IMG/VR virus record: IMGVR_UViG_3300025093_000015
Span: 23,711 to 87,710 of that record
Reading direction: 5' to 3' (one strand)
DNA: 64,000 nt
Source: a virus
Shown: positions 10,891-64,000 of the stretch, piece after piece
Layout of the letters: every line of letters starts with the position of its first letter
Position numbering within the stretch: the stretch's first letter is position 1
Notes under the pieces: generated by a model
The model's input: only the letters and a program-made list of their open reading frames with translations
What the model was told of the DNA's origin: nothing
Database searches by the model: none
Position numbers and translations under genes: made by a program

Positions 10891-10891
10891 T

Positions 10892-13516: not shown

Positions 13517-13569
13517 CCATTACTGACTATTAAATCATTAGTAACTATATACTGGTACTGTTATGTTTC

Positions 13570-14163
13570 TCATATATGAGAAATATCTACCATTATACGG
13601 TGACTGTCATAGCACTCATGCTCAGGATCAAGGTGTCTACCTTCCTTTACAAAAGCTTTAACTCTTTTGATAAGACCTTGATTGTCTTTTATCATTTTGA
13701 GTTGTGTGTAACTATCCATAAAAGCTATACCAGGTTTACTAGTTTTAAGTTTAAAGTCAATACTATGACAACTTGCAAATAATTCACAAGTGTAATCATC
13801 CATATCAACATCACCAAACATAGTCTTAAAAGGTTTAACTTCTATTAGATAATCACTAATAGCTTGTTTGAAATACTTTGGTGTATTCCAAGTACCAAGA
13901 TGAAAACATATCTCAGTCAAGTTATCTTTGGTCATGTATGTTTGTACACATACACCACCAAAGTAACTACAGACATATTCCAAATCACCGTTAACAACAT
14001 CCATTCTTCTATGGATCTTGTTTATTTTGTTACAGTCAGTTTGAAATATCTTACGACTATGGTAAGAGGTAATGCACTCTGCATCCCTCTTCCATAGATT
14101 TTTCCAAAAGTTTAACAATTTGTTAATCACTTTCCACGGTTTTTTTGTGTCCAGAATTTCCAT
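13570..14163 (-). CDS. Hypothetical protein, 197 aa
   Basis: The start is taken as ATG 14163 (MEILDTKKPWKVINKLLNFW); the longer frame would need GTG. Contains several Cys, Trp and Tyr residues (YVCSYFGGVCVQTYMTKDN) but no clear metal-binding spacing and no known motif. The start overlaps the upstream membrane-protein gene by 37 bases. Family not recognised. Confidence 0.7.
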   Translation of the reverse strand: MEILDTKKPWKVINKLLNFWKNLWKRDAECITSYHSRKIFQTDCNKINKIHRRMDVVNGDLEYVCSYFGGVCVQTYMTKDNLTEICFHLGTWNTPKYFKQAISDYLIEVKPFKTMFGDVDMDDYTCELFASCHSIDFKLKTSKPGIAFMDSYTQLKMIKDNQGLIKRVKAFVKEGRHLDPEHECYDSHRIMVDISHI

Positions 14164-14390
14164 GTCTGCCACTGGTTATACTTCTTTTTAACATCAAACA
14201 ACCACACTAATGATACAATTAAGTATACCCAAAACAATGTCATGAATATAGTTTTTGATGTATCAGGATGAGGTTGTAACCATTCAATCAATAAGATTGA
14301 AGATAAACCACTTATTAAAGTGGCAAATACTGCTGTAATCCATGCAACAAGAATCTTTGCTGGTGGATTAAAATTTTTAAATCTGTTCAT
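14127..14390 (-). CDS. Two-span membrane protein, 87 aa
   Basis: Two hydrophobic helices (about residues 12-33, AKILVAWITAVFATLISGLSSI, and 48-65, IFMTLFWVYLIVSLVWLF) separated by a short loop, with basic ends (KKKYNQWQTWKFWTQKNRGK). This predicts both termini in the cytoplasm. Holin-like size and topology, but its early location argues rather for a host-membrane-directed protein. The start overlaps the upstream small gene's stop as ATGA. Confidence 0.72.
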   Translation of the reverse strand: MNRFKNFNPPAKILVAWITAVFATLISGLSSILLIEWLQPHPDTSKTIFMTLFWVYLIVSLVWLFDVKKKYNQWQTWKFWTQKNRGK

Positions 14391-14539
14391 AGTCTAGATT
14401 TTTTAAAGTTATACGTGAGTTCAATGTCAAGAAAAGGTAATAACAATATAAAATCTATTGACTTACTTCTCTTTTGGTAGCCAAATCCTACACCAATGAA
14501 TGGTATAACACCTAGTCTACAGTTAAATTTCTTTTTCAT
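14387..14539 (-). CDS. Small conserved-type protein, 50 aa
   Basis: A short frame MKKKFNCRLGVIPFIGVGFG, continuing with YQKRSKSIDFILLLPFLDIEL. The alternating hydrophobic and glycine pattern predicts a small beta-rich protein, a type I have seen in phage genomes (F...G..ig.gy......i.f.lP...i.l). It is the first gene of the minus-strand block and its stop overlaps the next start (ATGA). Upstream lies the structured region. Confidence 0.65.
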   Translation of the reverse strand: MKKKFNCRLGVIPFIGVGFGYQKRSKSIDFILLLPFLDIELTYNFKKSRL

Positions 14540-47100: not shown

Positions 47101-50100
47101 GAATTAATAACTTACAAAGACCAAGTACAGTTGCTGTATCAGCAATAGCTCCAGCCGGTGCTGCAGGATTTGCAACACCATCACAAGCACAAGATGATTC
47201 AAGATTTATTATTGGTACGTTTGGTGGATGGTGGAATCCTTCACAATGGGTAGGTGCTAGTATTGCAGCACACTATACAGCCCTTAAAGTAGCATTTAAA
47301 AATCAATATGGACAGTTAGATCAAATTAAACAAATTCCAATTGGTTGTATACATTACTTTGAACAAGAAAGTGTTCAAAAAGACCCAAATGGTAATTACT
47401 ATGATGATATAAGTAAAGATGGAGTACCTATAGAAGATGCACGTTTTCAAACTAAAATATTATATGGAGGAGACTGTTATATAAATAGATATACAGAAAA
47501 AGTTATTATGCCTTTCTTCTGGGATTTTTTAGATGGACAACCAGATATGTTTCCGTATGACTATAGATTGAGAGCTAATGTACCACGCCCTATATATTGG
47601 ATGACAACAGAAAAATATGATCTTTCTCAATTAGTAAGGTATATTGTAGATTTAACTTGGCTTACAGGTGGTGGTAATAATACTAATATGACTAATATTA
47701 CTCCTAATAATTTACATTTTTTAGATAGACCTAATAATGATTTAGTCAATGATACATTAAGTGGTAATGGTAGTCAAACTAATGCTGGTGGACCTGTAGG
47801 AGTAGCAAATCCTAATCAAGGTGCTGATGGTATAACACAGGATAAAGGAGGTAGGTCTATATTTCATATTAAAAATGGATATATGTATACCCATTGTAAT
47901 GGTGTACAAGATTTCTTTGTTGAGTCTTCACTTAACATGGGTCTAAGAGACTATGAAGATACTGATGATAAAAGACATTATGATTTTGCAGAATATACAG
48001 ATGTAGAAGCAATGTTTCATTCTAAAATTATTAGAAAAGATAATTTCTATAAGTATGATTTCTCATTAAGTAAAACTAGATTTAATACTCAGCTTATATC
48101 TTTTGGACAAATACAAGATAGAGATTATGATCCTATTACTGCAGAGAAGTGTTTTACACATTTCCCTAAGAGATTAATATATTCTCTCCAAGCTCAAAAA
48201 GAAGCTAAGAAAGATTTCTGGAGGGTATTCTTACCAATGAATTACAAAGACTTTAAGGATAAAGTTAATGTAATCAAACCAATGTCAAAAAGTGGTGCAG
48301 TAGTTACATTCCCTAATTTAGCTCCAGCATTATTCCAAGGTGTAGATCAGTTACAAACAGATTTAGGAACTAAACTTACTATTGGTGACGGAGGACTATT
48401 TAGTCAGCCAATGCAAAATATTGTTAATGCTGATGAAGCTCATGAATATGGATCATGTGAAAGTTCTAGAAGTGTCATAAATACACCTAACGGATTATAC
48501 TATATATCACAAGCACAAGGTAAAATATTTAATTATGCAGGTAGAGGTTTAGAGAATATTGCAAATAATGGTATGAAACAATGGTTTAATAAATATTTAC
48601 CATCTGTACTATTATCACAATTTCCTGAACTAGAAGACTGCAGTGGATGGATAGATAACCCAGTGGCAGGTGTAGGATGTCAATCAGTATATGATCCTAA
48701 CTATGATATAGTTTATTTCTGTAAAAAAGATTATCAAGCATTAAATCCAGAATGTATTGACTTTGATCCATGTGAAGGTTTTGTATTTAATCAAACAGCA
48801 TGTGGAACTGCACAACCAGTACCTTGTTGTCCAGATGGATACACATTTGATATATCAAGTAATGAATGTATTAGAACTACAATTATAGAACCTATAGTAG
48901 ATCAAGAATTAGGTAATGTAGATATTGTATTTGCAATTGATTCTTCAAACTCAGTTGATGGTAATAATAATGTTGGTAATATGCAAAACTTCTTAAGAGG
49001 TTTTATTGATGGTATGTCACCAGAATTAAGTAGTGGTCAAGCAAGAATAGGTTTATGTCATTTTGGAGCTGGTAGAAATACAAGAGATCCATTATATAAT
49101 GGTCAGCAAAATTTATGTAATAATCCAAATACAGCAGATGAAATGTTTGAAGGAGCTAATCAAGTAACTTTAACAGATAATCAAGCTGTATTAGAAAATT
49201 GGATTGGATCACCATCAGGAGCTACTGCACCATTTACACCAGATTTCACTTCTGTATATGGTGCTTCATCTAGAAATATTGTAGGTATAGGAAGAGATTT
49301 CCCATATGGAACTGATATTGCTGCTGGTGTTTGGTGTGGTCAAAATTTATTATATATGGATGGATTTAGCAGAAATGTTAAAAAAATCTTAATTACAATA
49401 TTTGATGGACCACAAGCTACTGACTTACAAACAAATGGGCAACCTGCTATGTGTAGTCCAGGATTTTATACATCTGCAATATATACTTCAGGTGCTGTTA
49501 CTGGAACAGATGTTTATCAAAATAATACTGTTACACCAATAACTCCTGATATTACTTTTGGTAGAGAACCTTTAAATACTTTTTCTGCAGCAGGAGATTT
49601 AGCAACTACATGGTTCCAAAATAATATAGTATCAAATCCACAATATACTGCAGCACCATTCAATCAAGATTTTTATGCTGTTGTATTACCTCCTGGTGCA
49701 GCAGGTGATTTTGTTTCATATTCACAATTATGGTCTTCAGCACCAGGTTTTGCATATCAAGGTGATTTTGCAGTACAACAAGATATTATAGATATTGTAG
49801 ATGCAATTACAGCAGCAATAACACCTGATCCAGTATTTTCTTGCCCTCCTGGTTGTACTTTATTTACAGATTCTAATGGAGATCCAATGTGTTCTTGTGT
49901 TGAAACAACACCAGTAACATATAATGATGTAACAACTCCTATTGATTTACATGATGAAACATATTTTAAAGATGTATCATGGACAGTAAGTTATGATCCA
50001 AAAGCTAAAGCTTGGATTTCATTCCATGATTGGCATCCTGATTTAACAATACCTAGTTTAAATCATTTCTTTACAACTAAGAATTTTGTAGATACAACTA

Positions 50101-51971
50101 TTCCAGAATGTCCTCCAGGATTTACATGGGATCCAGTACAACAAATATGTTGTCAACAATATCCAGGAGAATTCCCATCAGAAATTATTGTTGATGAGGT
50201 ACCAGTAATAACTAACTTAGAAACTGTTGGTTGTAAATTAGATATTGTTATTGGTGTAGATAATAGTGGTTCTATGAATACAAATGGTCTTTGGAATCCT
50301 GCAATGATTTTTATAGATACTTTTGTAGGTGAGTTTGCACAATCTATGGCGGATGGTGATGTTCAAATTGGAATAGTTGGTTGGGGAAATCAAATGCTAA
50401 ATGTTACACCAAACATGAGTGGTAATTTATCAACAAATAATTTAGTTGGTACACAATGTAATTTAAATGCTGGAAATAGTAGCCCATCTATGTCTAATTA
50501 TACAGGTAGTACAAATTGGGGAACTATGTTAAGTAATAATCTTTTAGGAAATAGTATTTCACCTAATGGAGGAGGAACATTTTTACAAACAGCATTTAAT
50601 ACAGTACAAGCTCAATTATCAAATGTAAGACAATCAACACTTGGTGATAGAACAGATGAACAATCATATAAAAGAATTTCAATTATAATTACAGATGGTG
50701 CTCCATCTGCAGGACAAGCTCCTACTAATAATCAAGGAGGTCCTTTTGCACCAAATATGAATTCTAATTATCCAAGTTTAAACTATGGTTATGCTCCTAA
50801 TGCTGCAGAAAGTAGTGGTCAATTAACTGTAGCTTCTGAAACTTATTGTATTTATACAGCAAATACTGCACCTACTGGACAAGCATTAGCAAACATAACT
50901 GGAGTATTTAATGATTTAACTAGTGCACCATTTCAAGAAATACCATTATTACCTGCTGATAATAGAGATTTTGCAGAAGATCTTGCAAATAATATATGCT
51001 CTATTACTGTATGTAGTTGTCCACCTGACTATCAAAGAATTACAACTGAGTTTTCATCTCCAGCTTCACCACCATATGCACTATTAGATAATGATGCAGA
51101 TTGTTCAGCAGGTGGTGGACTTAAGAATGGAGTATGTAGAAAAATAGAATGTACTTGTCCTACAGACCGTCTACCTAGTACATATGTACCAAATACTTTA
51201 ACTCAAACTGGTCAATGTCCAGATGATATTATGCCAAACGGTATTGCTTTATATTATAATCCTGATACTGGAGTAGGTGATCCAACATGGCTAAATGTAA
51301 ATCCTCCTATTTGTAGATTTGAGTTTTTATGTTGCTTAGAACCTAATTTTGAAAAAGGTGGTGTATGGAAACATAATGATAGATGTGATTTATATACTAA
51401 TTACTATGAGAAAGATTATGGATGGGAAGTTGAACTTATTGAATCTGTTGGACAAACTGTAAATACTGTAAGAAGTATTGAGTATCAACTAGAGTCTTAT
51501 ATTTATAGAGGTAATTTAGAAGGTGATTGTGGTGATAGATTCCATGATCTTGATTATAATTTTGATCATGCTATACTTCACAATACAGAACAAGTTTCAG
51601 GATTATTAACATTTAATTTAAGTCCTAAAAATAATGCGCCATTAATTACACAGTTCCCACAGATTACTGCAAATGATATTCAAATACTATACAGTAAAGA
51701 AGAACAAAAGTATAGGTTTAATCAGTTCTGGGATGTTACTGCTGACAGAGGAGAATTTAATCCTAATGTAAGTGAACCAATATTTATTACTCAATTAAAT
51801 GGTTATATTAGAGATTTAAATCAAAATAATATTAATTTAGCAAAACCATCTTTCCAACGTAAGAAGTTTAGACATTATTGGAATGCTGTAGTTCTAAGAA
51901 AGAATGAATCAGGTAATAGAAAAATGTTATTGAAATTAAAGAATAGTAAAATTAATGTATCATTTAGATAA
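44139..51971 (+). CDS. Tail stabilisation/hub protein with two vWA domains
   Basis: A 2,610-aa protein. The N-terminus (TKIPIKGMTKDLNTSLVGKENWTHARNAINNSKDGDVGTLGNEPGN) is the hallmark of the crAss-like tail stabilisation protein (P22 gp10-like). A hydrophobic stretch at about 731-748 (LAMWVGIIVGVGYAIG) is followed by basic residues, resembling a membrane segment. Two canonical vWA domains are inserted in the C-terminal half: NVDIVFAIDSSNSVDG with DxSxS at 1601-1605, and KLDIVIGVDNSGSM with DxSxS at 2041-2045. Both have complete first metal-site motifs. It is far longer than the usual hub. Its stop overlaps the next start. vWA domains would bind ligands through Mg, perhaps at the host surface. 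Confidence 0.85.
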   Translation: MAKQQSPKLQNTSSTDTKIPIKGMTKDLNTSLVGKENWTHARNAINNSKDGDVGTLGNEPGNKVCSSAPYTIIGAIHLYGDKWVLYSTNNEQSEIGKWDDSECKYEPIVNDYTCFQCQNDDGLDSTSFTPCLNFDTQHLITGAAKENFDCTWQVYWDDGKNPSRTLNIDKVPYIQNVISEIGAECTVYEDTACLDCEALRLAPLVDIPCIKLSKSDDGGQLRNGTYQAFIAYTINDQVVGDYYGMSNLQPLYDHEDLLSGLEIEISNLDKGFEYFKLVILSHNQGEIQAKEIGIYSTEQSTISIDYINQALKAVPINTLPLTTPAFEKSDKMYVVNDYLIRQGPTERYDFNYQPIANRIHTHWTVTQFDSDYYKKGGNKPTFMRDEVYSFFIRFVYNTGEKSRSYHIPGRPLSWNGWQAPDGTIISELDQLTGDVNNLSAQASALGLCDTNDSDYAFEIYNTAQNQTDQFWQNPNNLTEGPITDDCGTVIAEGHMAYWQSTERYPNDPVRYNSDIGDDRYDLCGKPIRHHKFPDETFSGSGPGGFLDRSSNNGQSINVLGVKFDGIRMPRYSESFGQICSPDNGTPTGPPIPGIIGYEILVGSREGNKSIIAKGLSRNMRQYNLPAGQNAADSTATIGYIPNYPFNSAQADPYLSGDPGFSFGYNNPTNITQYPQANTAANVFTFHSPETSFNKPFLSPFEIKTYGLTTGRSVGRFRPSENHPQHKLLRNLAMWVGIIVGVGYAIGQMRGKRMTKTRRPQGYSMGLQQNARSGGSMTNTINGPNGGGGGAVGTGAWSITTISSNINTDQGGARAGAPAAAGQGLTLMNPDQTINQTEAAQNLPLGPNDLRETTLTTATIIGAPKIAKKIAYDNTMRFQDNLKTNALRRGYIGRMQEESYEGERFTEAPGLAQVLFGIFNFMQLTAEGGQHIIDMIYELVSLQDYAWKYSGHGLYLNTNAPLAGQVSRMLVDKGRYIGPSIQNLTANIRINNLQRPSTVAVSAIAPAGAAGFATPSQAQDDSRFIIGTFGGWWNPSQWVGASIAAHYTALKVAFKNQYGQLDQIKQIPIGCIHYFEQESVQKDPNGNYYDDISKDGVPIEDARFQTKILYGGDCYINRYTEKVIMPFFWDFLDGQPDMFPYDYRLRANVPRPIYWMTTEKYDLSQLVRYIVDLTWLTGGGNNTNMTNITPNNLHFLDRPNNDLVNDTLSGNGSQTNAGGPVGVANPNQGADGITQDKGGRSIFHIKNGYMYTHCNGVQDFFVESSLNMGLRDYEDTDDKRHYDFAEYTDVEAMFHSKIIRKDNFYKYDFSLSKTRFNTQLISFGQIQDRDYDPITAEKCFTHFPKRLIYSLQAQKEAKKDFWRVFLPMNYKDFKDKVNVIKPMSKSGAVVTFPNLAPALFQGVDQLQTDLGTKLTIGDGGLFSQPMQNIVNADEAHEYGSCESSRSVINTPNGLYYISQAQGKIFNYAGRGLENIANNGMKQWFNKYLPSVLLSQFPELEDCSGWIDNPVAGVGCQSVYDPNYDIVYFCKKDYQALNPECIDFDPCEGFVFNQTACGTAQPVPCCPDGYTFDISSNECIRTTIIEPIVDQELGNVDIVFAIDSSNSVDGNNNVGNMQNFLRGFIDGMSPELSSGQARIGLCHFGAGRNTRDPLYNGQQNLCNNPNTADEMFEGANQVTLTDNQAVLENWIGSPSGATAPFTPDFTSVYGASSRNIVGIGRDFPYGTDIAAGVWCGQNLLYMDGFSRNVKKILITIFDGPQATDLQTNGQPAMCSPGFYTSAIYTSGAVTGTDVYQNNTVTPITPDITFGREPLNTFSAAGDLATTWFQNNIVSNPQYTAAPFNQDFYAVVLPPGAAGDFVSYSQLWSSAPGFAYQGDFAVQQDIIDIVDAITAAITPDPVFSCPPGCTLFTDSNGDPMCSCVETTPVTYNDVTTPIDLHDETYFKDVSWTVSYDPKAKAWISFHDWHPDLTIPSLNHFFTTKNFVDTTIPECPPGFTWDPVQQICCQQYPGEFPSEIIVDEVPVITNLETVGCKLDIVIGVDNSGSMNTNGLWNPAMIFIDTFVGEFAQSMADGDVQIGIVGWGNQMLNVTPNMSGNLSTNNLVGTQCNLNAGNSSPSMSNYTGSTNWGTMLSNNLLGNSISPNGGGTFLQTAFNTVQAQLSNVRQSTLGDRTDEQSYKRISIIITDGAPSAGQAPTNNQGGPFAPNMNSNYPSLNYGYAPNAAESSGQLTVASETYCIYTANTAPTGQALANITGVFNDLTSAPFQEIPLLPADNRDFAEDLANNICSITVCSCPPDYQRITTEFSSPASPPYALLDNDADCSAGGGLKNGVCRKIECTCPTDRLPSTYVPNTLTQTGQCPDDIMPNGIALYYNPDTGVGDPTWLNVNPPICRFEFLCCLEPNFEKGGVWKHNDRCDLYTNYYEKDYGWEVELIESVGQTVNTVRSIEYQLESYIYRGNLEGDCGDRFHDLDYNFDHAILHNTEQVSGLLTFNLSPKNNAPLITQFPQITANDIQILYSKEEQKYRFNQFWDVTADRGEFNPNVSEPIFITQLNGYIRDLNQNNINLAKPSFQRKKFRHYWNAVVLRKNESGNRKMLLKLKNSKINVSFR

Positions 51972-54900
51972 TGAAATTTAGTAAAGACGGATATAAAAGA
52001 AATAGTAAGGATAGAAACAATCCTTATAATATAATACCATCAGGTAATATAACCATGAAGGATGTGGACTTTCCTGTATTTGGTATAGATAACCTAGGTA
52101 ATATTGAAATTATGATGCCAGGTGGTGAATATAAATTTCCTGGCAGTTCTGTTTTTGAAATTCCATTAGCACAAATTGGCAAAGAATTATCTGAATTAGA
52201 AAAAAAGATTAATGTTTATTTAAATAATCCAGGTGAAAGAGCAAAAGCTTTTTCTGAAAGTGAAGAAGAATTAGCAAACATTGATAATCTAAGACATGCA
52301 ATGGCAGGTAGATATACTGCTGAAGAACTTCAAAATAAAGTAAAAGGAATTCCTTATATAGGTAGTATTTTAGATGCTACAGGTGTTGATAAATTAGTTG
52401 GATTTTTAGGATCTAACGCACTTGGTATAGGTCATGAAGTTTCTACATTAGTTGAAGATGAAAGACCTTTTTTTGCAGCTCTTCAAGAAACTGGAGAAGA
52501 TGTGTTTAACAATTTTGTTGGATCAATAGTTGGTTCAACAGATGCAAGCTCTGAAAGAAAAGATAATATGTTACAGTTCCTTTCATATAATAATCTTTTA
52601 CCTGATGGATATGTACAAACTGATCCAAATTTTTCAGAGAATGTTTATTTTAAAAATCCAGACACTACTATAAAGAAACCTAACTTTGATAGCTATCAAG
52701 GTGGAGGAGAAGGAAAATATCAAGTAGAGGTAATTAAATATCCTCTTGGTTATCCAGGTATGCCTCCAGGTCATATTGAATCAAGAATATTAAATACAGA
52801 AGATCTACCAGAAAAATATAAAAAATTAGATGAAGATGGTAGACTAATTTATAAACCATATTTAAATGCTTGGCCAAACAGAAATAGAGAAGTAGATTAT
52901 GATCCAAAATATGATTATGAACCTGGTGTACAAACACTTATTCTAAATTTAAATGAATCAGATTTAGAAAAATATATGAATGCATCTCAATTAAGTAGAG
53001 CAGGTGGGATGGAAATTCCGTTAGTTAATTATGAATTAAATACAATGTTTGGTTTTGGAAATAAAGGTCAATATGATTTTTTTACTGATAATTGTGCAGA
53101 TCAAACATGTAGAGCGTTAGGATTATCTGATGCTAATAGTTCAATGCTAGGAGTAACAACACCACAACAAGTATATGATGCATTAATGAGTGATCCAAGA
53201 TTATTAGCAGGATCAGTAAAAGGAGATCCAACAGTTTTAGAAACTGCTGGAAAATCTATATATAATACTTATAGAACTACACCATGGTCTCTTTCACGAC
53301 CTTTAAGAGAAAAAGCAGTAAACTATATAGAAGATAATACAGATCTTCAATTTGACTGGGAAGGTGTTAAGAATATTCCTGGTTATCATTACCGTAATTG
53401 GATTAGACCAACTGGCCGTACAATTGAAAAAGGTGCTAAAGCTGTAAAAGAAACATATGAGGATTTATCACAATCATTTATAGATGGAATTAATAAGATT
53501 AATCCTATGAATTGGAAAAATGGAGGTTCATTACCAAAAGCACAAAATGGATTAAATATGCTAAATATAATAAATCCTTCAATGTTCACTACTAGTTATC
53601 TAGTTAATAAAGGTATGGATTTAGTAAAAAATAAAATAGCAGATAATGTAAGCCCATATGGATATCATGATGCATATAATAGACTTTATGATGCTATTTT
53701 TACTACAGAAAATCATGAAGGTTTTTCTTCTGAAGCAGGTGATGAAAGAAGAGATTTATTACATATGTTAATGGGTCTTCCTCAAGAGAATAATACAATA
53801 CTAGAACAAACTACATATGTTCCTACTAAAGGTCATAATGAAGGAGATATATATTATTCTTCACCATTCACTGAACAGGAAATTCAAAAAAATATTAACA
53901 ATATAGGAAAAAGTGAAAAAGACATTTGGTATGAGGATTATTTGTTAAATGAGAAAGGTGATCCAAAAGATTGGGAACTATATTGGAATGAAATATTGGA
54001 AGACGGCTTAGATTATAAGCTTTTTAATAGGCTACTTGATAGTAACGAAGCTGATGATCCTTTTATGTGGAATGGTAAAGAAGCAACTGATGATAAATTT
54101 CAAGCAGAAGAAGAGCCAGAGAAGTATATATACTATAAAGATATACAAGAACACAAAGATTTTGTAAATAGCAGTGATTATAAAAAATGGGAAAAGGAAG
54201 CAAAAGAACAAATAGAGGATAGATATAACCGGGTTCAGTTTCCTGATTTAGAAACTCTTTTAACAACACCTGGGAATAAAGAAGAGGGAACTGATCAGTC
54301 TGGTGGATTTTATGGTTCCGTTTTAGGTAACTTTACTTTAGGTCAAGGAGAAGATGAAAAAGGTAAATACATTAGTTACTATGATAAATGGGATTTATCT
54401 CCATATCAATATGATGGAGGTTGGAAGGAAACACTTTCTAATTTAGCACAAGAATATATATTAGGAGTAACGCCAGCATCAATATATAATAGAATGTATT
54501 ATACAATAGATGATGAAGGAAACTATGTATTTGAAAAGAAAAATGGAGGCTCACTACCACAAGCTCAATATGGGGTAGAACCTTATACAGCAGTTCAAGA
54601 TAACACATATGTTCATATACCACCACCTCCTCCAGCACCAACAAAAGTTATAGATCAATTTCCTCATGGTACAATTAGTCCAGCTGGTCCAGAACCTGCG
54701 TGGTATGAAAAATTACTTAATGTTGTAGCTCACCCAATGGAAGCTTTTGGTAGAAGTATTCATAATCAAGATTGGTGGACAGGTGACTTAGGAGAAGGAC
54801 TACCAATGAGTCCACAACATAGTACAAATATTGGGGGTGGTTTTGATATGCTTAATACATTTGTTAATCCTGCTAGTTGGGTGGAAGATATATCTGATTC

Positions 54901-57900
54901 TGAATCTATAACTGAAGGTGTTGTTAATACGGCAATGTTATTTCCTATATTTAGAGGTGGTAAATTAGTTAAACATGCAGATGAAGTTGTTGATGCTTCA
55001 AAACAAATAACTAAAGGTTCAGGTAAAGTAAAAATAGAAGATCCAAATACATTATACAGAGTAGTAGATGTTCCTGTGGGAACAAGTGCAGATGAAATAG
55101 CTAAAGCTGCAGAGTATGGTACAACAATACCAAACGTAGCAACTACAGGAAGACGTACAGGATATTCACAATTACAAAGAGAAACTCCTTTTGATGTATT
55201 AAATACTACTAGTAATCAAGGATGGATTTTAGGTAGAGGGCCAAATGATCCAGGTAATCTAATGAATTTATATGGAGGAAAAAATCCTTATGTAATAAAA
55301 ATGAGTAGAGGAAACCCTCTTGTAGGACCAGAAACTCTTAAAACCATTAATCAAAGAACAGATATTTTAAGAGACTTTAGTTTTCCATATACTCAAAATG
55401 TAGGAAAATGGAATCCAGCTACAGGTCAATTTGATTTACCTCTAGAACTGGGTGCAGGTGTATTTACAACAGTTGGAAAAAGTGCAGATGATCTTGCTAA
55501 GATAATGCCAGGATCTATTGTTAATCCTAATATGGTAAGTAGAGGCAATAATAATATCACTACAATATTTGGTCCAAAAGGTTTTCAAGTTAGACAACCA
55601 CAAGAAGTTTTACCAATAAGTGAATATATAAAACGTATAGGAAATAATCCTAATTTTAAATTTAATCTAGGAGGTTCATTACCAAAAGCACAAGATGGAG
55701 ATGGATATATAGAACAATATACAACAATGAATCAGGATGGTGTTTATAATCCATATACACTTACTGATGAAGAAATGGCAGTAGCAAATAAATATCAACC
55801 TGTAGTAGATTGGTATGATTCATATCTACAAGGTGATACGTTTAATCATCTATACAATAAAATACTTGATAATACTTCAGATCCGTGGGTTCCCCGTTTT
55901 ATGAAAACAGGTTTAAAACAAACTCAACAATATGTACAAGATTATCCATATGTAAAACAACATAATGATATTTGGAATTGGGATCCATTAAATGATCCAG
56001 TTAACGTAGCTCCTTCTATAATAGAGAAAAGAACTAATACTGGTGGACTACATAGAAGTAAGGCATCAAATCAAACAACAACTAAAAGTAGGATTAGTAT
56101 AGATCCTCAAAATGAATACTTTGGTCCTTACAGCACTGAGCAACAAGAAGGTATTATGGCTCATGAATTAGGACATACTGAAGGTAGATTTTTTACAGGA
56201 TCTCCTGAATTAGATGCAGAGATAAATAAAAGAAATAAAGCATACCAAAGAGTATGGAATAATTTACCAGAAGAAGATAAGAAACGTATGACAGAAAATC
56301 CTGTTGAAATAGGTTATTGGTTATCAGATAACTATAATAGTTCAAGTGATTTTCATGATGCAGCTTCACACGAAGTTAGGTCTGATGTGATAAGATTTAG
56401 ATATTTAGCAGATAAAGCTGGTATATATAATAGTTCAGGAGATTATAAAAAATTTAATGAAAGTGACTTAAAGAAAATGAAAGATCAATTTGGTAATAAC
56501 AGATTGTTTAGACACTTTGAAGATAAAGACATTATATGGCTTATGGATAATGTTGCACAACAAACTCCTGAAGGAACGGATAATCCTTATGAAATAGTAG
56601 ATGATTTTGGACAATCTAGTTTTATGTCTAGATACGGTGGTCAGTTACCAAAAGCTCAAGAAGGAAAAGAAACAATTAGTTTTGATGATCTTGAAAAGGG
56701 TATAAGATATGTTGAAAGTTTAAATGGAGAGTTAATGCTAAATCCTGAATCTTCAGCTACAGGATTATATGGTCAATTATGGAATGAAATTAAAGATAAA
56801 TATGATGGTACTAGAGAGGAGTTTGCTAAAGATTTAGATTATCAAAAACAGTTATTTAAAGATAGAGCAAATGGATTAATAGAAGGTGTTCCTGGTTTAA
56901 TTAGTAATGGAATTGATTTATATAATGAATACAGTGAGGTAGAGCATGGTATGTCTATGTTAGAAATTGCTGCTTTATCAAACATGTTAGGAAGACAAGG
57001 AACTAGAAAATATATTGGTAATCATATAAGAGATGGTAGATCTTTAGAAAGTGTATTTCCTAATCTATATGGTGAAGATGCAAAATATACAAATAAAACT
57101 CCTGGAGAGTATATTGAAAAGTTTAAAAAAGGACTACTAGAAGAATTAAAATCAGGTGGTGAGTTTATGAAAAAAATGAATAGACTTAAACAACAACTTG
57201 AATTATATAATAGTGGAAAAGAAATATCTGGAATTGCTAAAAAAGAATTAGAACTGAGAGGTTTAATAAAGCAACCTGTGATGCGTACAGGTGGATCTGT
57301 CCCAGTAAAAGAAGGTGATTATTTAGGAAAAATTGCAAGAGATGCTGGTTACACATTAGATGAAGTTATGCAATTTAATCCACAACTTAAAGACAGAAAA
57401 GACTACGTTATTTATCCAGGTGAAAAAATTTATTTTGATAATGAAACTAGAGAATATGATCTTAGTGGTAAACCTAAATTATTTCATACAGTGCAAAGAG
57501 GTGATACACTAGGAGAAATTGCTAGTAAGTATGATTTAAATTTAACTGAGGTAGCAAAATTAAATAATATTACAGGTGATGCAATTAATAGAATTTATCC
57601 TGGAGATCAAATACTTTTACCTGAACATGCTAAGTTTGAAAGAAATGATGATATAAAAAAACAAGAAGATATTGCTAAATCACCAGTAACTAATACAGAT
57701 AGTGTAGTTGTAAACACACCTTCTCCTGTAAATGATATTTGGGTAGAAAGAGAATATGATTCTGAAACAGGTAGATATAAAATTATAGGTGGTAAAAAAC
57801 AAAATATTCAAGAAATAAATACTTATAATAATTTACAAACTATAATTAAAGGTAAAAATGATTTTGATAAATCAACAAGTACAAAAAAAATATACACAGT

Positions 57901-60037
57901 AAAAGAAGGTGATACACTATCACGAATAGCATCTGATTTTGGAGTTCCTTTAAACACTTTAGTTACTGATAATAATATTAGTGATCCTAGTAAAATTTTA
58001 GTTAATCAAAAAATAACAGTAAATAAAAATACTGCTAAACCATATTTAGTGATTGATAAATCAAAAAGTAAGATGCATTTAATTTATCCTGGTGATACCC
58101 AACCAAGAGAATCATATGATATTCTTACAGGTACAATGGTAGGAGATCAAGCAACAGTTACAAAATCTGATTACTTTTATCAAGGTAAGAAGTTAACTCA
58201 AGATGAACTTAATCAACACATGGAAGATAATGGTGTTAAAAACATTAGAGAATTATTAAGTATTAAATTAGATGGTAAACCTTTATACACTAGTTCTACA
58301 GATTATTATGCAGGTAACAGAATGACAGGTGCAGGAAAATATACTATTTCTGAAACTAATGCAGATGGTGGTAGATCATACCGTGGTGATGCTGCACCAG
58401 GAGAATTAGTACCATCATTTAACTTAGTTAATGAACAAGGTGTAGAACAAGCACTTGCTATACATGGTGTAACAAGAGGTAGAACAGCATCACTATATGA
58501 TAATAACCCATATAACAATAGATTAACTTCTGGTTGTATAAATGGTAAGTGTGAAGATCTACAATCATTATATGAAAATCCTGATATTACTAAAGGGACT
58601 GAAGTTTATGTGTTACCAGAAAACGAAGATTCAGGTAGTTCTTTTGTATATGAAAATGGTAAGATAAACTTTTACACTAAAAGAGAAAACCAAGAAAGAG
58701 CACGTAAAGGATTTTATAAGGCTAAAGACAATAAAAATAGATATAGTGGTAAAGGTGGAGATGAAGGTGAGTTTGTAGAAGATGGACCAGGTATTAATGT
58801 TACTACTAACTTTGGTAATTATAATCCTATTATGTTTGAATTTGATAAATCATTACATCAATCAGAAGGAGCTAATAATCCTTATGTACAAGCTGATGGT
58901 AGTGTAATAAATTTAAATAAAGAATTTACAGAGCACACACAACCATTTTTAAATTCATTAGCAGAAAATAAAAAACGTGTAATGGAGACTATAAATATAG
59001 ATGGTGACTTATATAATGATTTAGCATTAGTATCATTTGGTATATATGCTAATGAAAGTGGTATGGGAGATATAAATCCATTAGGTGAAGATATACTTAA
59101 GTTAGGAAGAAAAACTGGAGTAACACTATTAAATAAATTAGGTGCAGGTTTAAATCCTGTAGGATCAGGAAGTGTTGAAAGAAAATATAATATAGGATTT
59201 CAAAATGATCCTTCAAATAGTGTAGGATGGACACAATTAAGAGTTGGTGATGGTAATACTGGTCCAAATGAAAGAGAAGCTTTAGCAAGATATGATAATA
59301 AATATGATACTAAATTTACAAATAAAATAGAAACAGTATTATCACAAGATGATTTAAATACTTTACAATCATATGATCAAAAAAATGGAACTGATTTATA
59401 TTCTCAAGCTACATCTAATAATAATAAAGGAAGAATTTATGTGAATAGGTTAGGAGAAGTTCAGTATCATAAATATGATATTGATAATAGTTTATTATTG
59501 GATCCTGAATATTCTGCAATAGCAACTGCAATTATATTAGGAGAAAGATATAAAAATCAAATTTCAAGAGATAAAAAGAATTCATCTGATTTTGATATAT
59601 ATCATGAAGTAGCTAAAACATGGAGGCCAGGTACTAAATCTGATGACTATGCTAGATTAGTAAATGCAAATATTCCATTAGTTACATTGAGAGAAACAGA
59701 CATTAATAATATTGACAAGAATGTAATTATAAAAGGTGAATATCAAAATACTTCTGAGACTACAAAAGATTTAGCTGTTGAAGCTGCACATAATACTGTA
59801 TTACCTAATTTATTATCTACAATTTTTGGTTTTTCTAGAGGTGGAGAGTTTGGATTAAATAATCAAATACAATTTTATAAAGATTATGTAGAGGGTCTTT
59901 ATAAAAATACTAATCAAGAAAAGTCAGCTAAAAAACTCTATGATAAATTAAATAGAATGTATTACAATGAGTATAGAGGTACGGATAGTAATGCATTAGA
60001 TATAATGAACTTAATGAATAGTGGTACAAATAATTAG
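51971..60037 (+). CDS. Giant multidomain cargo polyprotein with cell-wall enzymes
   Basis: A 2,688-aa protein divided by GGSLPKAQ-type motifs at residues 518, 859, 1234 and 1556, plus a diverged one at 1774. Segments: 1-517 has a TDNCADQTC site (C375) recalling NlpC-like folds; 528-858 and 869-1233 unrecognised; 1244-1555 has AHELGH (H1398, E1399, H1402), a zinc metallopeptidase site; 1566-1773 has a lysozyme/transglycosylase-like VESLNG...NPESSATGLYG (E1582); then three LysM domains (about 1780-1826, 1839-1886, 1975-2020), a YkuD L,D-transpeptidase domain (H2165, SGC 2187-2189) and a second transglycosylase-like region with ANESGMG (E2362). It is probably carried in the head and ejected to open the wall. 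Start overlaps the hub stop. Confidence 0.85.
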   Translation: MKFSKDGYKRNSKDRNNPYNIIPSGNITMKDVDFPVFGIDNLGNIEIMMPGGEYKFPGSSVFEIPLAQIGKELSELEKKINVYLNNPGERAKAFSESEEELANIDNLRHAMAGRYTAEELQNKVKGIPYIGSILDATGVDKLVGFLGSNALGIGHEVSTLVEDERPFFAALQETGEDVFNNFVGSIVGSTDASSERKDNMLQFLSYNNLLPDGYVQTDPNFSENVYFKNPDTTIKKPNFDSYQGGGEGKYQVEVIKYPLGYPGMPPGHIESRILNTEDLPEKYKKLDEDGRLIYKPYLNAWPNRNREVDYDPKYDYEPGVQTLILNLNESDLEKYMNASQLSRAGGMEIPLVNYELNTMFGFGNKGQYDFFTDNCADQTCRALGLSDANSSMLGVTTPQQVYDALMSDPRLLAGSVKGDPTVLETAGKSIYNTYRTTPWSLSRPLREKAVNYIEDNTDLQFDWEGVKNIPGYHYRNWIRPTGRTIEKGAKAVKETYEDLSQSFIDGINKINPMNWKNGGSLPKAQNGLNMLNIINPSMFTTSYLVNKGMDLVKNKIADNVSPYGYHDAYNRLYDAIFTTENHEGFSSEAGDERRDLLHMLMGLPQENNTILEQTTYVPTKGHNEGDIYYSSPFTEQEIQKNINNIGKSEKDIWYEDYLLNEKGDPKDWELYWNEILEDGLDYKLFNRLLDSNEADDPFMWNGKEATDDKFQAEEEPEKYIYYKDIQEHKDFVNSSDYKKWEKEAKEQIEDRYNRVQFPDLETLLTTPGNKEEGTDQSGGFYGSVLGNFTLGQGEDEKGKYISYYDKWDLSPYQYDGGWKETLSNLAQEYILGVTPASIYNRMYYTIDDEGNYVFEKKNGGSLPQAQYGVEPYTAVQDNTYVHIPPPPPAPTKVIDQFPHGTISPAGPEPAWYEKLLNVVAHPMEAFGRSIHNQDWWTGDLGEGLPMSPQHSTNIGGGFDMLNTFVNPASWVEDISDSESITEGVVNTAMLFPIFRGGKLVKHADEVVDASKQITKGSGKVKIEDPNTLYRVVDVPVGTSADEIAKAAEYGTTIPNVATTGRRTGYSQLQRETPFDVLNTTSNQGWILGRGPNDPGNLMNLYGGKNPYVIKMSRGNPLVGPETLKTINQRTDILRDFSFPYTQNVGKWNPATGQFDLPLELGAGVFTTVGKSADDLAKIMPGSIVNPNMVSRGNNNITTIFGPKGFQVRQPQEVLPISEYIKRIGNNPNFKFNLGGSLPKAQDGDGYIEQYTTMNQDGVYNPYTLTDEEMAVANKYQPVVDWYDSYLQGDTFNHLYNKILDNTSDPWVPRFMKTGLKQTQQYVQDYPYVKQHNDIWNWDPLNDPVNVAPSIIEKRTNTGGLHRSKASNQTTTKSRISIDPQNEYFGPYSTEQQEGIMAHELGHTEGRFFTGSPELDAEINKRNKAYQRVWNNLPEEDKKRMTENPVEIGYWLSDNYNSSSDFHDAASHEVRSDVIRFRYLADKAGIYNSSGDYKKFNESDLKKMKDQFGNNRLFRHFEDKDIIWLMDNVAQQTPEGTDNPYEIVDDFGQSSFMSRYGGQLPKAQEGKETISFDDLEKGIRYVESLNGELMLNPESSATGLYGQLWNEIKDKYDGTREEFAKDLDYQKQLFKDRANGLIEGVPGLISNGIDLYNEYSEVEHGMSMLEIAALSNMLGRQGTRKYIGNHIRDGRSLESVFPNLYGEDAKYTNKTPGEYIEKFKKGLLEELKSGGEFMKKMNRLKQQLELYNSGKEISGIAKKELELRGLIKQPVMRTGGSVPVKEGDYLGKIARDAGYTLDEVMQFNPQLKDRKDYVIYPGEKIYFDNETREYDLSGKPKLFHTVQRGDTLGEIASKYDLNLTEVAKLNNITGDAINRIYPGDQILLPEHAKFERNDDIKKQEDIAKSPVTNTDSVVVNTPSPVNDIWVEREYDSETGRYKIIGGKKQNIQEINTYNNLQTIIKGKNDFDKSTSTKKIYTVKEGDTLSRIASDFGVPLNTLVTDNNISDPSKILVNQKITVNKNTAKPYLVIDKSKSKMHLIYPGDTQPRESYDILTGTMVGDQATVTKSDYFYQGKKLTQDELNQHMEDNGVKNIRELLSIKLDGKPLYTSSTDYYAGNRMTGAGKYTISETNADGGRSYRGDAAPGELVPSFNLVNEQGVEQALAIHGVTRGRTASLYDNNPYNNRLTSGCINGKCEDLQSLYENPDITKGTEVYVLPENEDSGSSFVYENGKINFYTKRENQERARKGFYKAKDNKNRYSGKGGDEGEFVEDGPGINVTTNFGNYNPIMFEFDKSLHQSEGANNPYVQADGSVINLNKEFTEHTQPFLNSLAENKKRVMETINIDGDLYNDLALVSFGIYANESGMGDINPLGEDILKLGRKTGVTLLNKLGAGLNPVGSGSVERKYNIGFQNDPSNSVGWTQLRVGDGNTGPNEREALARYDNKYDTKFTNKIETVLSQDDLNTLQSYDQKNGTDLYSQATSNNNKGRIYVNRLGEVQYHKYDIDNSLLLDPEYSAIATAIILGERYKNQISRDKKNSSDFDIYHEVAKTWRPGTKSDDYARLVNANIPLVTLRETDINNIDKNVIIKGEYQNTSETTKDLAVEAAHNTVLPNLLSTIFGFSRGGEFGLNNQIQFYKDYVEGLYKNTNQEKSAKKLYDKLNRMYYNEYRGTDSNALDIMNLMNSGTNN
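53522..53551 (+). repeat. GGSLPKAQ motif 1
   Basis: Encodes GGSLPKAQNG, residues 518-527 of the giant cargo protein, after a Trp-Lys-Asn spacer. It separates the first domain from the second. Confidence 0.85.
54545..54574 (+). repeat. GGSLPKAQ motif 2
   Basis: Encodes GGSLPQAQYG, residues 859-868, preceded by Lys-Lys-Asn and followed by a Pro-rich linker (IPPPPPAPTK). Confidence 0.85.
55670..55699 (+). repeat. GGSLPKAQ motif 3
   Basis: Encodes GGSLPKAQDG, residues 1234-1243, preceded by FNL. It directly precedes the metallopeptidase segment. Confidence 0.85.
56636..56665 (+). repeat. GGSLPKAQ motif 4
   Basis: Encodes GGQLPKAQEG, residues 1556-1565, preceded by SRY. It directly precedes the first transglycosylase-like segment. 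Confidence 0.85.
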
Positions 60038-60049
60038 CATATCTGCTGA

Positions 60050-60072
60050 TAATTTAGTATATTATTAAAGTA
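60050..60072 (+). promoter_or_regulatory. Late promoter motif (TATATTAT), copy 7
   Basis: TAATTTAGTATATTATTAAAGTA; core 60058-60065, 19 bases before the ATG of the 819-aa gene. Same TTTAG-TATATTAT form as copies 1 and 2. Confidence 0.72.
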
Positions 60073-60084
60073 AACTGTAACTAT

Positions 60085-62544
60085 ATGTTTTTTAATACCA
60101 ATCCATATTTAATGTTAGCAAAGCTGGGCGGTTCATTACCTAAATATCAAGGTAATGAAGGATCTAGTGAAACTAATACAAATGATTCTGATGGTAATGG
60201 TATTCCAGATAATGCTGTTATAGAACATGGTAGTGCATACTGGGAAGATGAAAATGGTGTTTTGCAGATGGCTACTGTAGATCCACAAGGTAATTGGGAA
60301 ATAGCAAGCAATGACGAAGGTCAAGGTAGTGGAACAACTGATCCTGGAACAGGTTTAACATTTAGTCAAGCTTATAGACAAGCTAGAGATGCAGGTGAAA
60401 AAACTTTTACTTGGAATGGTAAACAATATACAACTAGATCAGAAAGTGAAAGTGAAGAAGAATTTGAATCAAAATTTAATACAGAAGAAAATACAGAAGA
60501 AAATAATGATGAAAATGCTAATGTAAATAATAATACTAATAATGAAAATGATGAGGATTTAACAGATTTGGAAAAAGCTCAAAGGCTTGCTAATCAAGCT
60601 GAAAATGATTTAAGTTTTAGAAATCCTGATGAAGCAACTATACTTTCTGGTATAGGAGATAATCCATTTTTAGAATTAGTAGATGCTGTTGAAAGAGGAG
60701 TAAAAAGTTTTAAAGGTGAAAACTATTATGATCCTGGCAGCAAAGAAGATTATATGAAATATACTATAAGAAATGTATCTGATCAAGACTTATATTATAA
60801 TGAAGAGGATAGGCTTAAAATGGCTTACAACCCTGGTAAATATTTAAAAGATGAAGAAGAGATACGTGAAGAAGATATGGTAAACTTTCTTAATGAAAGA
60901 AGAAAGGGTAGACGTGATATGTATGGTAAGGTCAAAGATTTTGATTATGATTTATATGAACTTACAGGTAAAGGTAAAACATACAGTAGATTTTCTGGAG
61001 CTAAACAAGGAGATTTATTAGAGGAAAAATACAGGGATGCAGATTATTTAGGTTATACAGAAAGAAGTGATGGTAGCTCAAATCCATATAACTATTTAGA
61101 AAGATTAGAAGGATCAGGAGATCCAAATTATATAGGTCCACAAGGAAACACTATTATACAAGGTCAAGATGACTCATTTTTGTCAAGAGACTTTGAAGGA
61201 TCAAGCACACCTTTTAATAGAGATGATGATTCTATAGAATGGCAAAGATCAATGGCTAATCCAATGAATCAACCTATAACAATGCCAACAATTCCAGTTA
61301 CAGAAATACCTCTTAATAATTCTGAACCAGAGTTACAAAAAGCTATTCCATATATTCCTGCAGAACCAGTAGATGCACCTGTAGATCCTAATGCACCAGG
61401 TGTTGAAGATCTTCAAGACATTCCACCTAATCTTGCAAGATATGGTGGTGGCTTACCAAAATATCAATCATTAGGAGAATTTAGTACACCAACACAAGGA
61501 ATGTTTACTCCAACATTTTCAGGATATAGTTTATCAGGTAATCAAATTTCACCTTTTACTAACCCAGGTCCAACATTAAATAATCCTGCAGGTTTTTTGA
61601 ATACTCCTGTATTAGGTGCACCAACTACTGAGGATCAATACAAACCTATGACTGATGCACAAATGTATGCTAATTCACAAGCAGTTCAAAGATCAATGGA
61701 TAGCTTTGAAGCATTTACTGCAGATATGAATAAAAGATTAGAAAATCCTTCTTTAAGTATGAATCAGGTTGACACAAACCCATTAAATCTTCCAGAAGTA
61801 GATTTTAGCCCATCTCCAGAGTTACAAAATACAATGGATGCAATGGATTATACAATAGCAGAAAGTCAAGGTAGATTAATGGGAACTGGTGCTAATGCAA
61901 CAATTATACCATCTGCAGAACAAATGCAACAACAGTCAGAAGAATTTAGTGCAAACTTAGAAGAACAGATGAGTAATATACCAGAGTATCAGGGAACTCA
62001 AGAAAATCTAGATAGATATGATAGATCTATGGAATTAGGTTTTGATGGTGATTTAGCAGCTATGGATGCATATGATGAGTCAGAGGCAGCAGAAGCACAG
62101 ATGAGATCTGATAGAGCAGATGCTATTGAATTAGCAAGTGAAAAACCAAGTTTTGGAACTAGAGCATATAATACTATGTTAAGAGTAGCTGATAGTAAAC
62201 CAGTTCAAACATATACTAAGATTAGTGATATGGCAATTAATATGTCAAAACCTATTACTAAAATAGCAAGAGCTGCAAATGAAAGAAAACAAAAACTTGA
62301 TATGATGAACAATGCATTTTTAGCAGATAATATATTTGCTGCTACAGATGCAGATACATCAGGTAATAAAGGTAACTATGATCCTAATACTGGTATATTT
62401 AGACCAGATGATAAAGTTATTTCTGGTACTACACAATCAGCAAAAAGAGGAGGAAGTTTCTATAAATCAGGAGGATCTATAGATATAGATATAAATACAT
62501 ATAAACAATTAGTTGCTGCGGGAGCAGATATAACAATATTATAA
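60085..62544 (+). CDS. Cargo-type virion protein, 819 aa
   Basis: Begins MFFNTNPYLMLAKLGGSLPK, so the GGSLPKYQG motif is at residues 15-23; a second copy GGGLPKYQ is at 454-461 (after ARY). Between them is a very acidic, Asn-rich disordered region (EENTEENNDENANVNNNTNN) and then charged helical parts. The C-terminus (KSGGSIDIDINTYKQLVAAGADITIL) matches a short closing pattern (GGsidi....y..l.a.Ga.i..l) seen at the ends of crAss-like cargo proteins. No enzyme motif. Probably packed in the head and ejected. Driven by its own late promoter motif. Confidence 0.75.
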   Translation: MFFNTNPYLMLAKLGGSLPKYQGNEGSSETNTNDSDGNGIPDNAVIEHGSAYWEDENGVLQMATVDPQGNWEIASNDEGQGSGTTDPGTGLTFSQAYRQARDAGEKTFTWNGKQYTTRSESESEEEFESKFNTEENTEENNDENANVNNNTNNENDEDLTDLEKAQRLANQAENDLSFRNPDEATILSGIGDNPFLELVDAVERGVKSFKGENYYDPGSKEDYMKYTIRNVSDQDLYYNEEDRLKMAYNPGKYLKDEEEIREEDMVNFLNERRKGRRDMYGKVKDFDYDLYELTGKGKTYSRFSGAKQGDLLEEKYRDADYLGYTERSDGSSNPYNYLERLEGSGDPNYIGPQGNTIIQGQDDSFLSRDFEGSSTPFNRDDDSIEWQRSMANPMNQPITMPTIPVTEIPLNNSEPELQKAIPYIPAEPVDAPVDPNAPGVEDLQDIPPNLARYGGGLPKYQSLGEFSTPTQGMFTPTFSGYSLSGNQISPFTNPGPTLNNPAGFLNTPVLGAPTTEDQYKPMTDAQMYANSQAVQRSMDSFEAFTADMNKRLENPSLSMNQVDTNPLNLPEVDFSPSPELQNTMDAMDYTIAESQGRLMGTGANATIIPSAEQMQQQSEEFSANLEEQMSNIPEYQGTQENLDRYDRSMELGFDGDLAAMDAYDESEAAEAQMRSDRADAIELASEKPSFGTRAYNTMLRVADSKPVQTYTKISDMAINMSKPITKIARAANERKQKLDMMNNAFLADNIFAATDADTSGNKGNYDPNTGIFRPDDKVISGTTQSAKRGGSFYKSGGSIDIDINTYKQLVAAGADITIL
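60127..60153 (+). repeat. GGSLPKYQ motif 5
   Basis: Encodes GGSLPKYQG at residues 15-23, right at the N-terminus of the 819-aa protein. Confidence 0.8.
61444..61467 (+). repeat. GGGLPKYQ motif 6
   Basis: Encodes GGGLPKYQ, residues 454-461 of the 819-aa protein, after ARY. It splits the acidic half from a Pro/Thr-rich half. Confidence 0.8.
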
Positions 62545-62546
62545 TT

Positions 62547-64000
62547 ATGAAAGTAAACATTAATAAATTACCAGCTGGCTTTTCTATTGTAAATGGAAAA
62601 GTGTACAAAGACGGAGGTACTACTGGTGATCAGTCAGATTTTGGATTAGTAACATATCCACATTTAGATCCGTTTGCAACTGAAGATCCAACATCTAAGG
62701 TTAATTATTCTATTAACGCTGTTCCTAGAGATGAAGCTAATCTAGAAGCTGAGAAAGGTGAGACCGTCCTTACTGATCTTAACAATGATGGGAACTTTGA
62801 ATTATATGAAATACAAGGTAAAAGACATCATCAAGGTGGTACTCCGTTAAATCTTCCACCTCAATCATTTATTTACTCTGACACACCAGCAATGAAATTT
62901 AGTAAATTTGAACTTGCTGAAATGGGGTTAGAGTCAAAGAAAAAATTAACTCCTGCTGCTGTTTCTAAAAAGTATCAACTTAATAATTTTATGGGATTAT
63001 TAGATGATGAGTCTTCAGATAATATAACAAGAGATACAGCTGAGTATATGATAGGTAAAAATAAAAGAGCTTTATCTCAAATAGCATTTCTACAAGAAGC
63101 AAAAAAAGAATTTGAAGATGGTGTTCCATTAGCTGCATATCCATACTTATCTGAAAAAGGTATTGATCCACTACAATTTTCACAACAAGTTCAAGATATA
63201 TCTAGAAAAGAAGCTGAATTACAAATGTTAGTACAACTTCCATTTGAACAAAGAATGCAATTACTTAGTGCAAAACAAATGATGGAAGAGCAGCAAAGAA
63301 GACAGCAAGAACAAAACATGTTGGCACAACAAGGTATGTTACCTCCATCACAAGCTAATATGTCTGCACCAGCTCCTGGTCAAGAGATGATGGCAATGCA
63401 ACCAAACATGCAGCCTAATATGCAGCCTAATATGCAACCAGCTATGGCTAAACGAGGTGGTCAATTATCTAATCTATTACCAAAAGCACAGTTTGGATAT
63501 ATGGGTAGTAACAGAGGAAGATCTAATTTAAATCAGTCTATGAAAATAGCAGGTACAACTGCACTTGGTAGTATGTTACTTAGAACAGTACCTCAAATGA
63601 TTAGCAGGTATAATAGAAAGAATGATGCTTGGGAAATGTATAATGATAACATGGATCAAATGTGGGCTAGACCAGGTTCAGGTTATGATAGCTGGGCAGA
63701 TTTTTGTGAAAACAACACATGTCCAAATTTACCAAACTTTACACCAAGCAAATCAGATTGGTTTTCTGGACAAGGATATACTGGTCAAGGTAGCGGTATG
63801 GATCCTGATTATTATATGGGTCTAGTAGGAGGTAACACTAAAGAAGAATATAGACAAAATATAGGTGCTGGAATAAAACAAGGATTAAAAGATGGTCTAA
63901 AAACTGGTCTAGTTAATTATGGTCTTAATGCATTATTAGACAATACTAGGTTTGGAAGAAAACTACAAAGAAACTTTGATATTAATTTAGGTTGGTATAA
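62547..64000 (+). CDS. Conserved crAss-like cargo/structural protein, partial
   Basis: Starts MKVNINKLPAGFSIVNGKVY two bases after the previous stop and is open at the right edge (at least 484 aa). The N-terminal part includes EANLEAEKGETVLTDLNNDG and KRHHQGGTPLNLPPQSFIYS, a strongly conserved crAss-like pattern (EaE.GE.vltdln.dg..el..i.GkrHh.GGtPl.lp..SFi.S). A Gln-rich coiled coil (MMEEQQRRQQEQNMLAQQ), a four-unit QPNM repeat and the motif RGGQLSNLLPKAQFGY (an expanded GGxLPKAQ) follow. Its Gly-rich later part resembles disordered ejected proteins. The whole suggests a head-internal protein. Confidence 0.83.
   Translation, partial: MKVNINKLPAGFSIVNGKVYKDGGTTGDQSDFGLVTYPHLDPFATEDPTSKVNYSINAVPRDEANLEAEKGETVLTDLNNDGNFELYEIQGKRHHQGGTPLNLPPQSFIYSDTPAMKFSKFELAEMGLESKKKLTPAAVSKKYQLNNFMGLLDDESSDNITRDTAEYMIGKNKRALSQIAFLQEAKKEFEDGVPLAAYPYLSEKGIDPLQFSQQVQDISRKEAELQMLVQLPFEQRMQLLSAKQMMEEQQRRQQEQNMLAQQGMLPPSQANMSAPAPGQEMMAMQPNMQPNMQPNMQPAMAKRGGQLSNLLPKAQFGYMGSNRGRSNLNQSMKIAGTTALGSMLLRTVPQMISRYNRKNDAWEMYNDNMDQMWARPGSGYDSWADFCENNTCPNLPNFTPSKSDWFSGQGYTGQGSGMDPDYYMGLVGGNTKEEYRQNIGAGIKQGLKDGLKTGLVNYGLNALLDNTRFGRKLQRNFDINLGWY
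63396..63443 (+). repeat. In-frame 12-bp tandem repeat
   Basis: Four units of ATG-CAR-CCN-AAY (the last ends GCT) encode MQPN MQPN MQPN MQPA. Units 2 and 3 are identical at the DNA level, so slippage may vary the count. Confidence 0.85.
63456..63497 (+). repeat. GGxLPKAQ motif 7, expanded
   Basis: Encodes GGQLSNLLPKAQFG, where four residues separate GGQ-L from LPKAQ. Preceded by AKR, as other copies are preceded by a basic or aromatic residue. Confidence 0.7.

Follow-up and report, generated by a model that had tools for sequence, protein, structure and literature searches.

IMG/VR record IMGVR_UViG_3300025093_000015 is linear viral DNA of 87.7 kb. Its final 64 kb, referred to here as the window, hold three consecutive genes, F1, F2 and F3, whose products share a recurrent peptide of the form GGxLPKAQ; as the window stops where the record does, F3 is incomplete. 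The virus belongs to the Crassvirales by its major capsid protein (Crass_capsid, E 3.2e-34), its muzzle protein and crassvirus ring proteins 1 and 2, all encoded in the record. The gene order in relatives is muzzle, F1, F2, F3, a C2-like gene and a vRNAP-like gene, placing F1-F3 where crassvirus cargo genes lie, between the muzzle and C2/vRNAP genes; the C2-like gene was named from its position and N-terminus, and the vRNAP-type gene was recognized through BLAST to crAss001 gp47 in some loci only. An initial inspection of the letters alone (the sequence-only reading) had called this DNA crAss-like and the three genes cargo genes; the crAss-like assignment and the cargo-gene position are borne out. 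Gene order, together with homologs in phage phi4:1 that have been detected by mass spectrometry, points to F1-F3 being proteins that are probably packaged and ejected.

The strict pattern GGxLP[K/Q][A/Y]Q occurs four times in F1 and twice in F2, always in frame, and no strict copy is found in the other reading frames of the window. With a further copy in F3 that carries an insertion, this confirms the earlier claim of a motif recurring in three consecutive proteins; the diverged copy that had been proposed at 57290 scores under the profile threshold and is dropped. In the relatives' loci compared for gene order, the motif is confined to F1-F3.

Table 1. Features of the cargo locus, in window coordinates
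Feature	Position	Strand	Basis or remark
Muzzle gene	44139..51971	+	crAss_MUZ PF25731, E 8.7e-23; VWA, 6e-10; directly upstream of the cargo block
F1, 2,688-aa (amino acids) modular cargo-type protein with four strict copies	51971..60037	+	Open reading frame (ORF); N-terminal domain common to phi4:1 gp40
F1 conserved N-terminal domain, aa 1-75, C-terminal end ..FPGSSVFEIPLAQIG	51971..52195	+	Relatives compared
PLAQIG at the end of the F1 N-terminal domain	52163..52180	+	Similar to PxAQxG, the latter part of the motif
Module 1, aa 244-517, putatively NlpC/P60-like	52700..53521	+	Inspection; also between two motifs in L180
M1, GGSLPKAQ	53522..53545	+	Strict motif scan; same DNA as M3
Module A, aa 526-858	53546..54544	+	Missing from L183
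M2, GGSLPQAQ	54545..54568	+	Insertion site of a 204-aa module in L184
Module B, aa 867-1233	54569..55669	+	Missing from L183; in L109 85% identical and motif-bounded
M3, GGSLPKAQ	55670..55693	+	Strict motif scan
HELGH module, zincin-like	55694..56635	+	Inspection; homologous to part of phi4:1 gp41; missing from L184
M4, GGQLPKAQ	56636..56659	+	Low-confidence coil in AlphaFold2 model
Transglycosylase-like module	56660..57280	+	Inspection; Foldseek lytic transglycosylase matches not significant
GGSVPVKE (TGGSVPVKEGDY), formerly proposed diverged copy	57290..57313	+	Not significant by profile
Three LysM repeats and YkuD-like region	57296..58612	+	YkuD 20.8 against a Pfam cut-off of 23.4 bits
F2, 819-aa cargo-type protein	60085..62544	+	C-terminus ..LVAAGADITIL common to the family
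F2 N-terminal copy GGSLPKYQ, aa 15	60127..60150	+	Strict motif scan
F2 internal copy GGGLPKYQ	61444..61467	+	Insertion site of a ~243-aa module in L112
F3, truncated by the record end	62547..63998	+	L121 version 1,803 aa; gene position as crAss001 C1 (gp45)
F3 copy GGQLSNLLPKAQ, with a 4-residue insertion	63456..63491	+	Region of pLDDT <50
Motif-bearing peptide KNGGSLPKAQNG			

Conservation and spread of the motif

The DNA pattern used to scan IMG/VR has AAA as its only Lys codon, so that counts of Lys codons are biased. Among the matches listed, 112 non-redundant contexts were left once related ones had been removed, and these define a conserved span of ~13 residues, from -3 to +9, that reads [FYK][KRQ][Y]GG[S]LPKAQxG, or in brief [K/R]xGG-S-LPKAQ-x-G, with flanks on either side at background conservation. 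Positions -3, -2, -1, +2 and +9 are informative although the search pattern left them free (Gly occupies +9 in 85 of the 112), and the basic or aromatic residues seen ahead of the motif by eye are thereby upheld. The sequence-only reading had proposed a profile search; run with a profile built from the 112 contexts, it gave 347 forward matches (redundant over loci) at a score of at least 12, against none in reversed proteins. A looser DNA pattern matched 89 times in 50 records, against none for the reversed pattern; as the records had been picked for bearing the motif, the unbiased part of this number is the excess over one per record. Matches fall on a single strand per record; where records were compared in this respect, the capsid gene lies on that same strand.

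A crassvirus capsid gene is present in 35 of the 50 larger motif-bearing records and a muzzle gene in 11 of the other 15, giving 46 of 50 together. In a different sample, of 36 loci selected through the N-terminal domain of F1, 18 had at least one copy at a score of at least 12. Judged from these records, the motif is widespread in environmental crassviruses; no full motif is found in the cultured phages phi14:2 and crAss001 or in the phi4:1 stretch. A 3,330-aa relative of F1 with degenerate copies lies at 4550-14536 of a 245.6-kb record (L142; L numbers denote the loci and records compared), which may stem from a jumbo-sized relative of the crassviruses or be a concatenation.

Across 84,980 genomes of bacteria and archaea, an extended pattern gave 62 matches where ~60 are expected by estimate. 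The single match that is convincing in its setting lies in a crassvirus-like cargo ORF (L259, WLWP01000004.1), on a 114.7-kb contig that is filed in a metagenome-assembled genome of the Pseudomonadales and looks like a mis-binned crassvirus. As the motif is absent from bacterial genomes apart from this crassviral-looking contig, whatever reads it is probably phage-encoded.

For Gly, Pro, Ala and Gln, the motif uses codons as the rest of the genome does, and for Leu nearly so, indicating that selection acts on the protein. A DNA element, including one for recombination, was rejected, there being no conservation at synonymous positions. Copies within a locus are slightly more alike at synonymous sites than copies from different loci (0.60 vs 0.49), a difference that exchange from time to time would produce.

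Module exchange at the motif

Comparison of related loci makes it very probable that the motif is a joint between interchangeable modules and the exact point at which they are exchanged. BLAST alignment ends that are internal to both proteins fall at motifs in both 49 times, where 3.7 such cases are expected; a larger set restricted to >=60% identity gives 30, with 0.73 expected and no more than 6 in any of 500 shuffles. Related sequences are included in these counts, so that not every case is an independent event. The peptide is where blocks of homology stop, as it should be at a module border.

Individual loci show modules gained, lost and swapped in frame at the motif, in part through crossover inside shared motif DNA. 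L183 matches the window as far as M1 (95% DNA identity) and continues with the sequence downstream of M3 at 99.7%; in the window, M1 and M3 are an identical 24-mer. L184 has an extra module at M2 with the motif on both sides and has lost the module between M3 and M4, its M3 being fused to the sequence downstream of M4. On the same contig as L184, the F2 of L112 has its extra module at the residue-454 motif, and the window's F2 motif at this place matches one L112 copy in its upstream half and the other L112 copy in its downstream half. A module of ~600 aa has been lost between L052 and L095, and L023/window, L109/window and L189/L191 have differing neighbours beyond a shared motif; the joins in these four pairs are one-sided or two-sided. 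In L180, the module at F1 aa 244-525 recurs in a different cargo protein, again with a motif on either side (529-889; 27% identity to module 1, E 4e-21). The L183 and L184 joins are considered real and not assembly artefacts, since L183 differs from the window by up to ~5% in neighbouring bases, L184 comes from another sample and the frames are intact.

The sequence-only reading is partly supported: it had correctly placed the motif between modules, and it had missed both the exchange of modules and the spread of the motif through environmental crassviruses. The roles that it preferred, a protease site or a packaging tag, stay candidates.

Pfam domains found in 30 motif-bearing ORFs are LysM, YkuD, SLT, NlpC/P60, SET, ART-PolyVal and M91, so that many modules resemble cell-wall enzymes. 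For the window, the zincin-like, NlpC-like and transglycosylase-like labels were given by inspection; the HELGH module has no Pfam match, and no motif stands between the LysM repeats and the YkuD-like region. The module inserted at M2 in L184 (8001-15698, aa 863-1058) is by inspection outer-membrane beta-barrel-like, with alternating Gly/aromatic strands, which is unusual for an ejected protein. SET-domain matches lie in the cargo-type proteins of L017 (aa 478-556) and L040 (aa 63-107). In L281, an 820-aa phage ORF (5288-7747) carries GCTDPxAxNYxxxAxxDDGSC repeats, and one ORF of that record, probably the same one, has a Por_Secre_tail domain of the host secretion type. With 2,610 aa, among them two VWA domains, the muzzle ORF of the window has roughly double the length of the crAss001 muzzle gene.

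Structural setting and half-motifs

In an AlphaFold2 model of F1 aa 1200-1790, M4 lies in coil with a predicted local distance difference test score (pLDDT) <50, ahead of a confident helical domain; the model is confident only after M4, and the surroundings of M3 are too poorly modelled to judge. The F3 copy likewise falls in a stretch of pLDDT <50, after a confident domain at aa 52-262. Low pLDDT at these two copies is consistent with disorder, which it does not prove. The sequence-only reading had named motifs inside folded domains as what would speak against it, and at M4 and the F3 copy, where this was looked at, no such placement is seen. Foldseek gave no significant match for either model; the F3 domain, which bears E.GE..H..GG.P..SFI[YF]SD in the window and relatives, is possibly a new fold.

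In most relatives, the N-terminal domain of F1 closes with P[LMK]AQxG; the corresponding residues of phi4:1 gp40 are PNFQAGG. The core [AYF]QxGG occurs 102 times in motif-bearing ORFs, against 12 when reversed, some occurrences overlapping full motifs. A uniform leader peptide was rejected, as the core is not enriched at N-termini (6 observed vs 6.9 expected). In phi4:1, gp40, with the F1-type N-terminal domain, and gp41, with the HELGH region, are annotated as virion proteins from tandem mass spectrometry; pieces that are fused in F1 are here separate adjacent virion genes (L149, 22065-26971). Gp40 also matches F3 weakly (E 0.004).

The crAss001 protein C1 (gp45) occupies the gene position of F3 and has recurrent xxGGxL half-motifs, some of which start ordered segments (PMC10172136); it differs in that the LPKAQ half is missing and in having no profile or fold match to F3. 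Five half-motifs xxGGx[LIM] are present in C1, against a shuffle mean of 0.26, the pattern having been chosen after the sequence was seen. The ordered segments of C1 span 214-245, in the tail barrel, and 425-552, bound to the portal (PMC10172136), and two half-motifs, AYGGPL (207-212) and AFGGWL (425-430), lie at or just before their starts. The second of these opens the modelled portal-bound domain, which implies that the chain is uncut after that GG. Homology of F3 to C1 found no support in sequence (hhalign probability 0.6%) or in fold, gp45 not being among the Foldseek matches listed, none of which reached E <= 0.001.

Possible roles of the joint peptide

Taken as a whole, the pattern is best explained by a joint peptide that also serves as a docking or handling signal, an explanation given not quite an even chance. 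The peptide would let a phage-encoded partner, which might be the portal, the tail barrel or a further cargo protein, recognize each module of the long threaded chain as it is loaded or ejected. With the same signal at all joints, any module flanked by it could plug in. The docking or handling role in itself, for which the half-motifs near the starts of ordered C1 segments speak, is held tentatively and is favoured over a processing site. Several points weigh against it. C1 bears half-motifs only, and its putative homology to F3 is argued from synteny; a docking tag, unlike a cleavage site, need not fall exactly at each module boundary; many relatives have degenerate copies or none, making the signal dispensable in some lineages; and recombination alone could partly shape the pattern.

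If a protease cut cargo polyproteins at the motif, either as the particle matures or once they have been ejected, N-terminal leaders and single enzyme modules would be released; this is a somewhat doubtful alternative. The joint position, with several motifs per chain in predicted unstructured linkers, and the PxAQxG core that closes the F1 N-terminal domain like a cleavable leader favour cleavage; the separate phi4:1 genes indicate that fusion is dispensable, and there is a precedent in African swine fever virus (ASFV), where pS273R cuts pp220 at Gly-Gly-X (PMC10308890). However, an S78-type peptidase was found in 0 of 18 motif records, which may be fragments (control positive in 4), and a C39 peptidase in 0 of 18 (control positive in 8); searches for S77 (T4 gp21-type) and C48 (Ulp1-type) proteases, in which no positive control matched, weigh neither for nor against. 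The ~9 conserved positions far exceed the AXE recognized by the SPN3US prohead protease (PMC10052503), the C1 half-motif at 427 is uncut in the published model, and the LysM, YkuD and C-terminal joints have no motif. Processing in cis by the zincin-like module is excluded, as the L184 F1 keeps its motifs without the module. A protease of an unrecognized kind could be at work, since most crassvirus genes are unannotated. Motif length, the absence of S78 and C39 peptidases and the intact C1 half-motif together favour docking.

It is unlikely that the motif is a passive recombination joint, that is, a flexible linker kept for in-frame recombination of modules and recognized by nothing. Such a joint would fit the exact motif-to-motif exchanges, the identical DNA of M1 and M3, the chimeric motifs at joins and the greater likeness of copies within a locus. 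Yet the motif codons are as varied as the background, which argues that DNA identity is not what is kept; LPKAQ is superfluous in a flexible linker, and the F2 copy at aa 15 is conserved in position in relatives with no module ahead of it. A host sorting signal, translation-arrest peptide or other host-read peptide would likewise be short, conserved and independent of context, but is highly improbable with matches in prokaryote genomes at chance and the sole convincing one on a crassviral-looking contig.

Related arrangements are known. In CdiA, a VENN-type peptide marks a swappable C-terminal toxin region, and the shared feature is a short conserved peptide bordering exchangeable modules. CdiA has one such border per protein and a C-terminal toxin, whereas the crassvirus motif has up to 6 copies per protein and internal modules that vary on both sides, in phage cargo-type proteins. 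The polyvalent proteins of phages and conjugative elements are likewise multidomain, with ART-type domains, and are thought to be delivered together with DNA; processing by zincin-like peptidases has been proposed for them (PMC5512222), whereas the zincin-like module here is not required in cis. The passages on these proteins in that account describe no recurrent joint peptide. The AXE site in SPN3US gp245 (PMC10052503) and the Gly-Gly-X sites of ASFV (PMC10308890) are also short sites recurring in several virion proteins or polyproteins, but they are much shorter, and the corresponding protease was not found in the motif records searched. A search of the open-access literature for the peptide returned unrelated papers only, which is weak evidence as sequences are rarely printed there. 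A peptide bordering exchangeable modules is known in principle, while its use as an exchange point with many copies per protein, across three phage cargo-type proteins, appears undescribed in the papers searched.

No viruses in the human gut are more abundant than crassviruses, and the peptide offers a handle, at the level of sequence, on how they load and eject giant proteins through a narrow tail. It would predict module borders in unannotated giant proteins and could be used as a pull-down probe, and the cargo-type proteins appear to evolve as modules are plugged in and out at a defined joint. Put more cautiously than the docking role itself, GGxLPKAQxG may be a universal plug-in peptide, with a phage-encoded reader that handles any module bearing it, by loading, anchoring or threading. 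If true, the ejected proteome would be an open cassette system, in which enzymes could move between three cargo proteins with no need for redesign.
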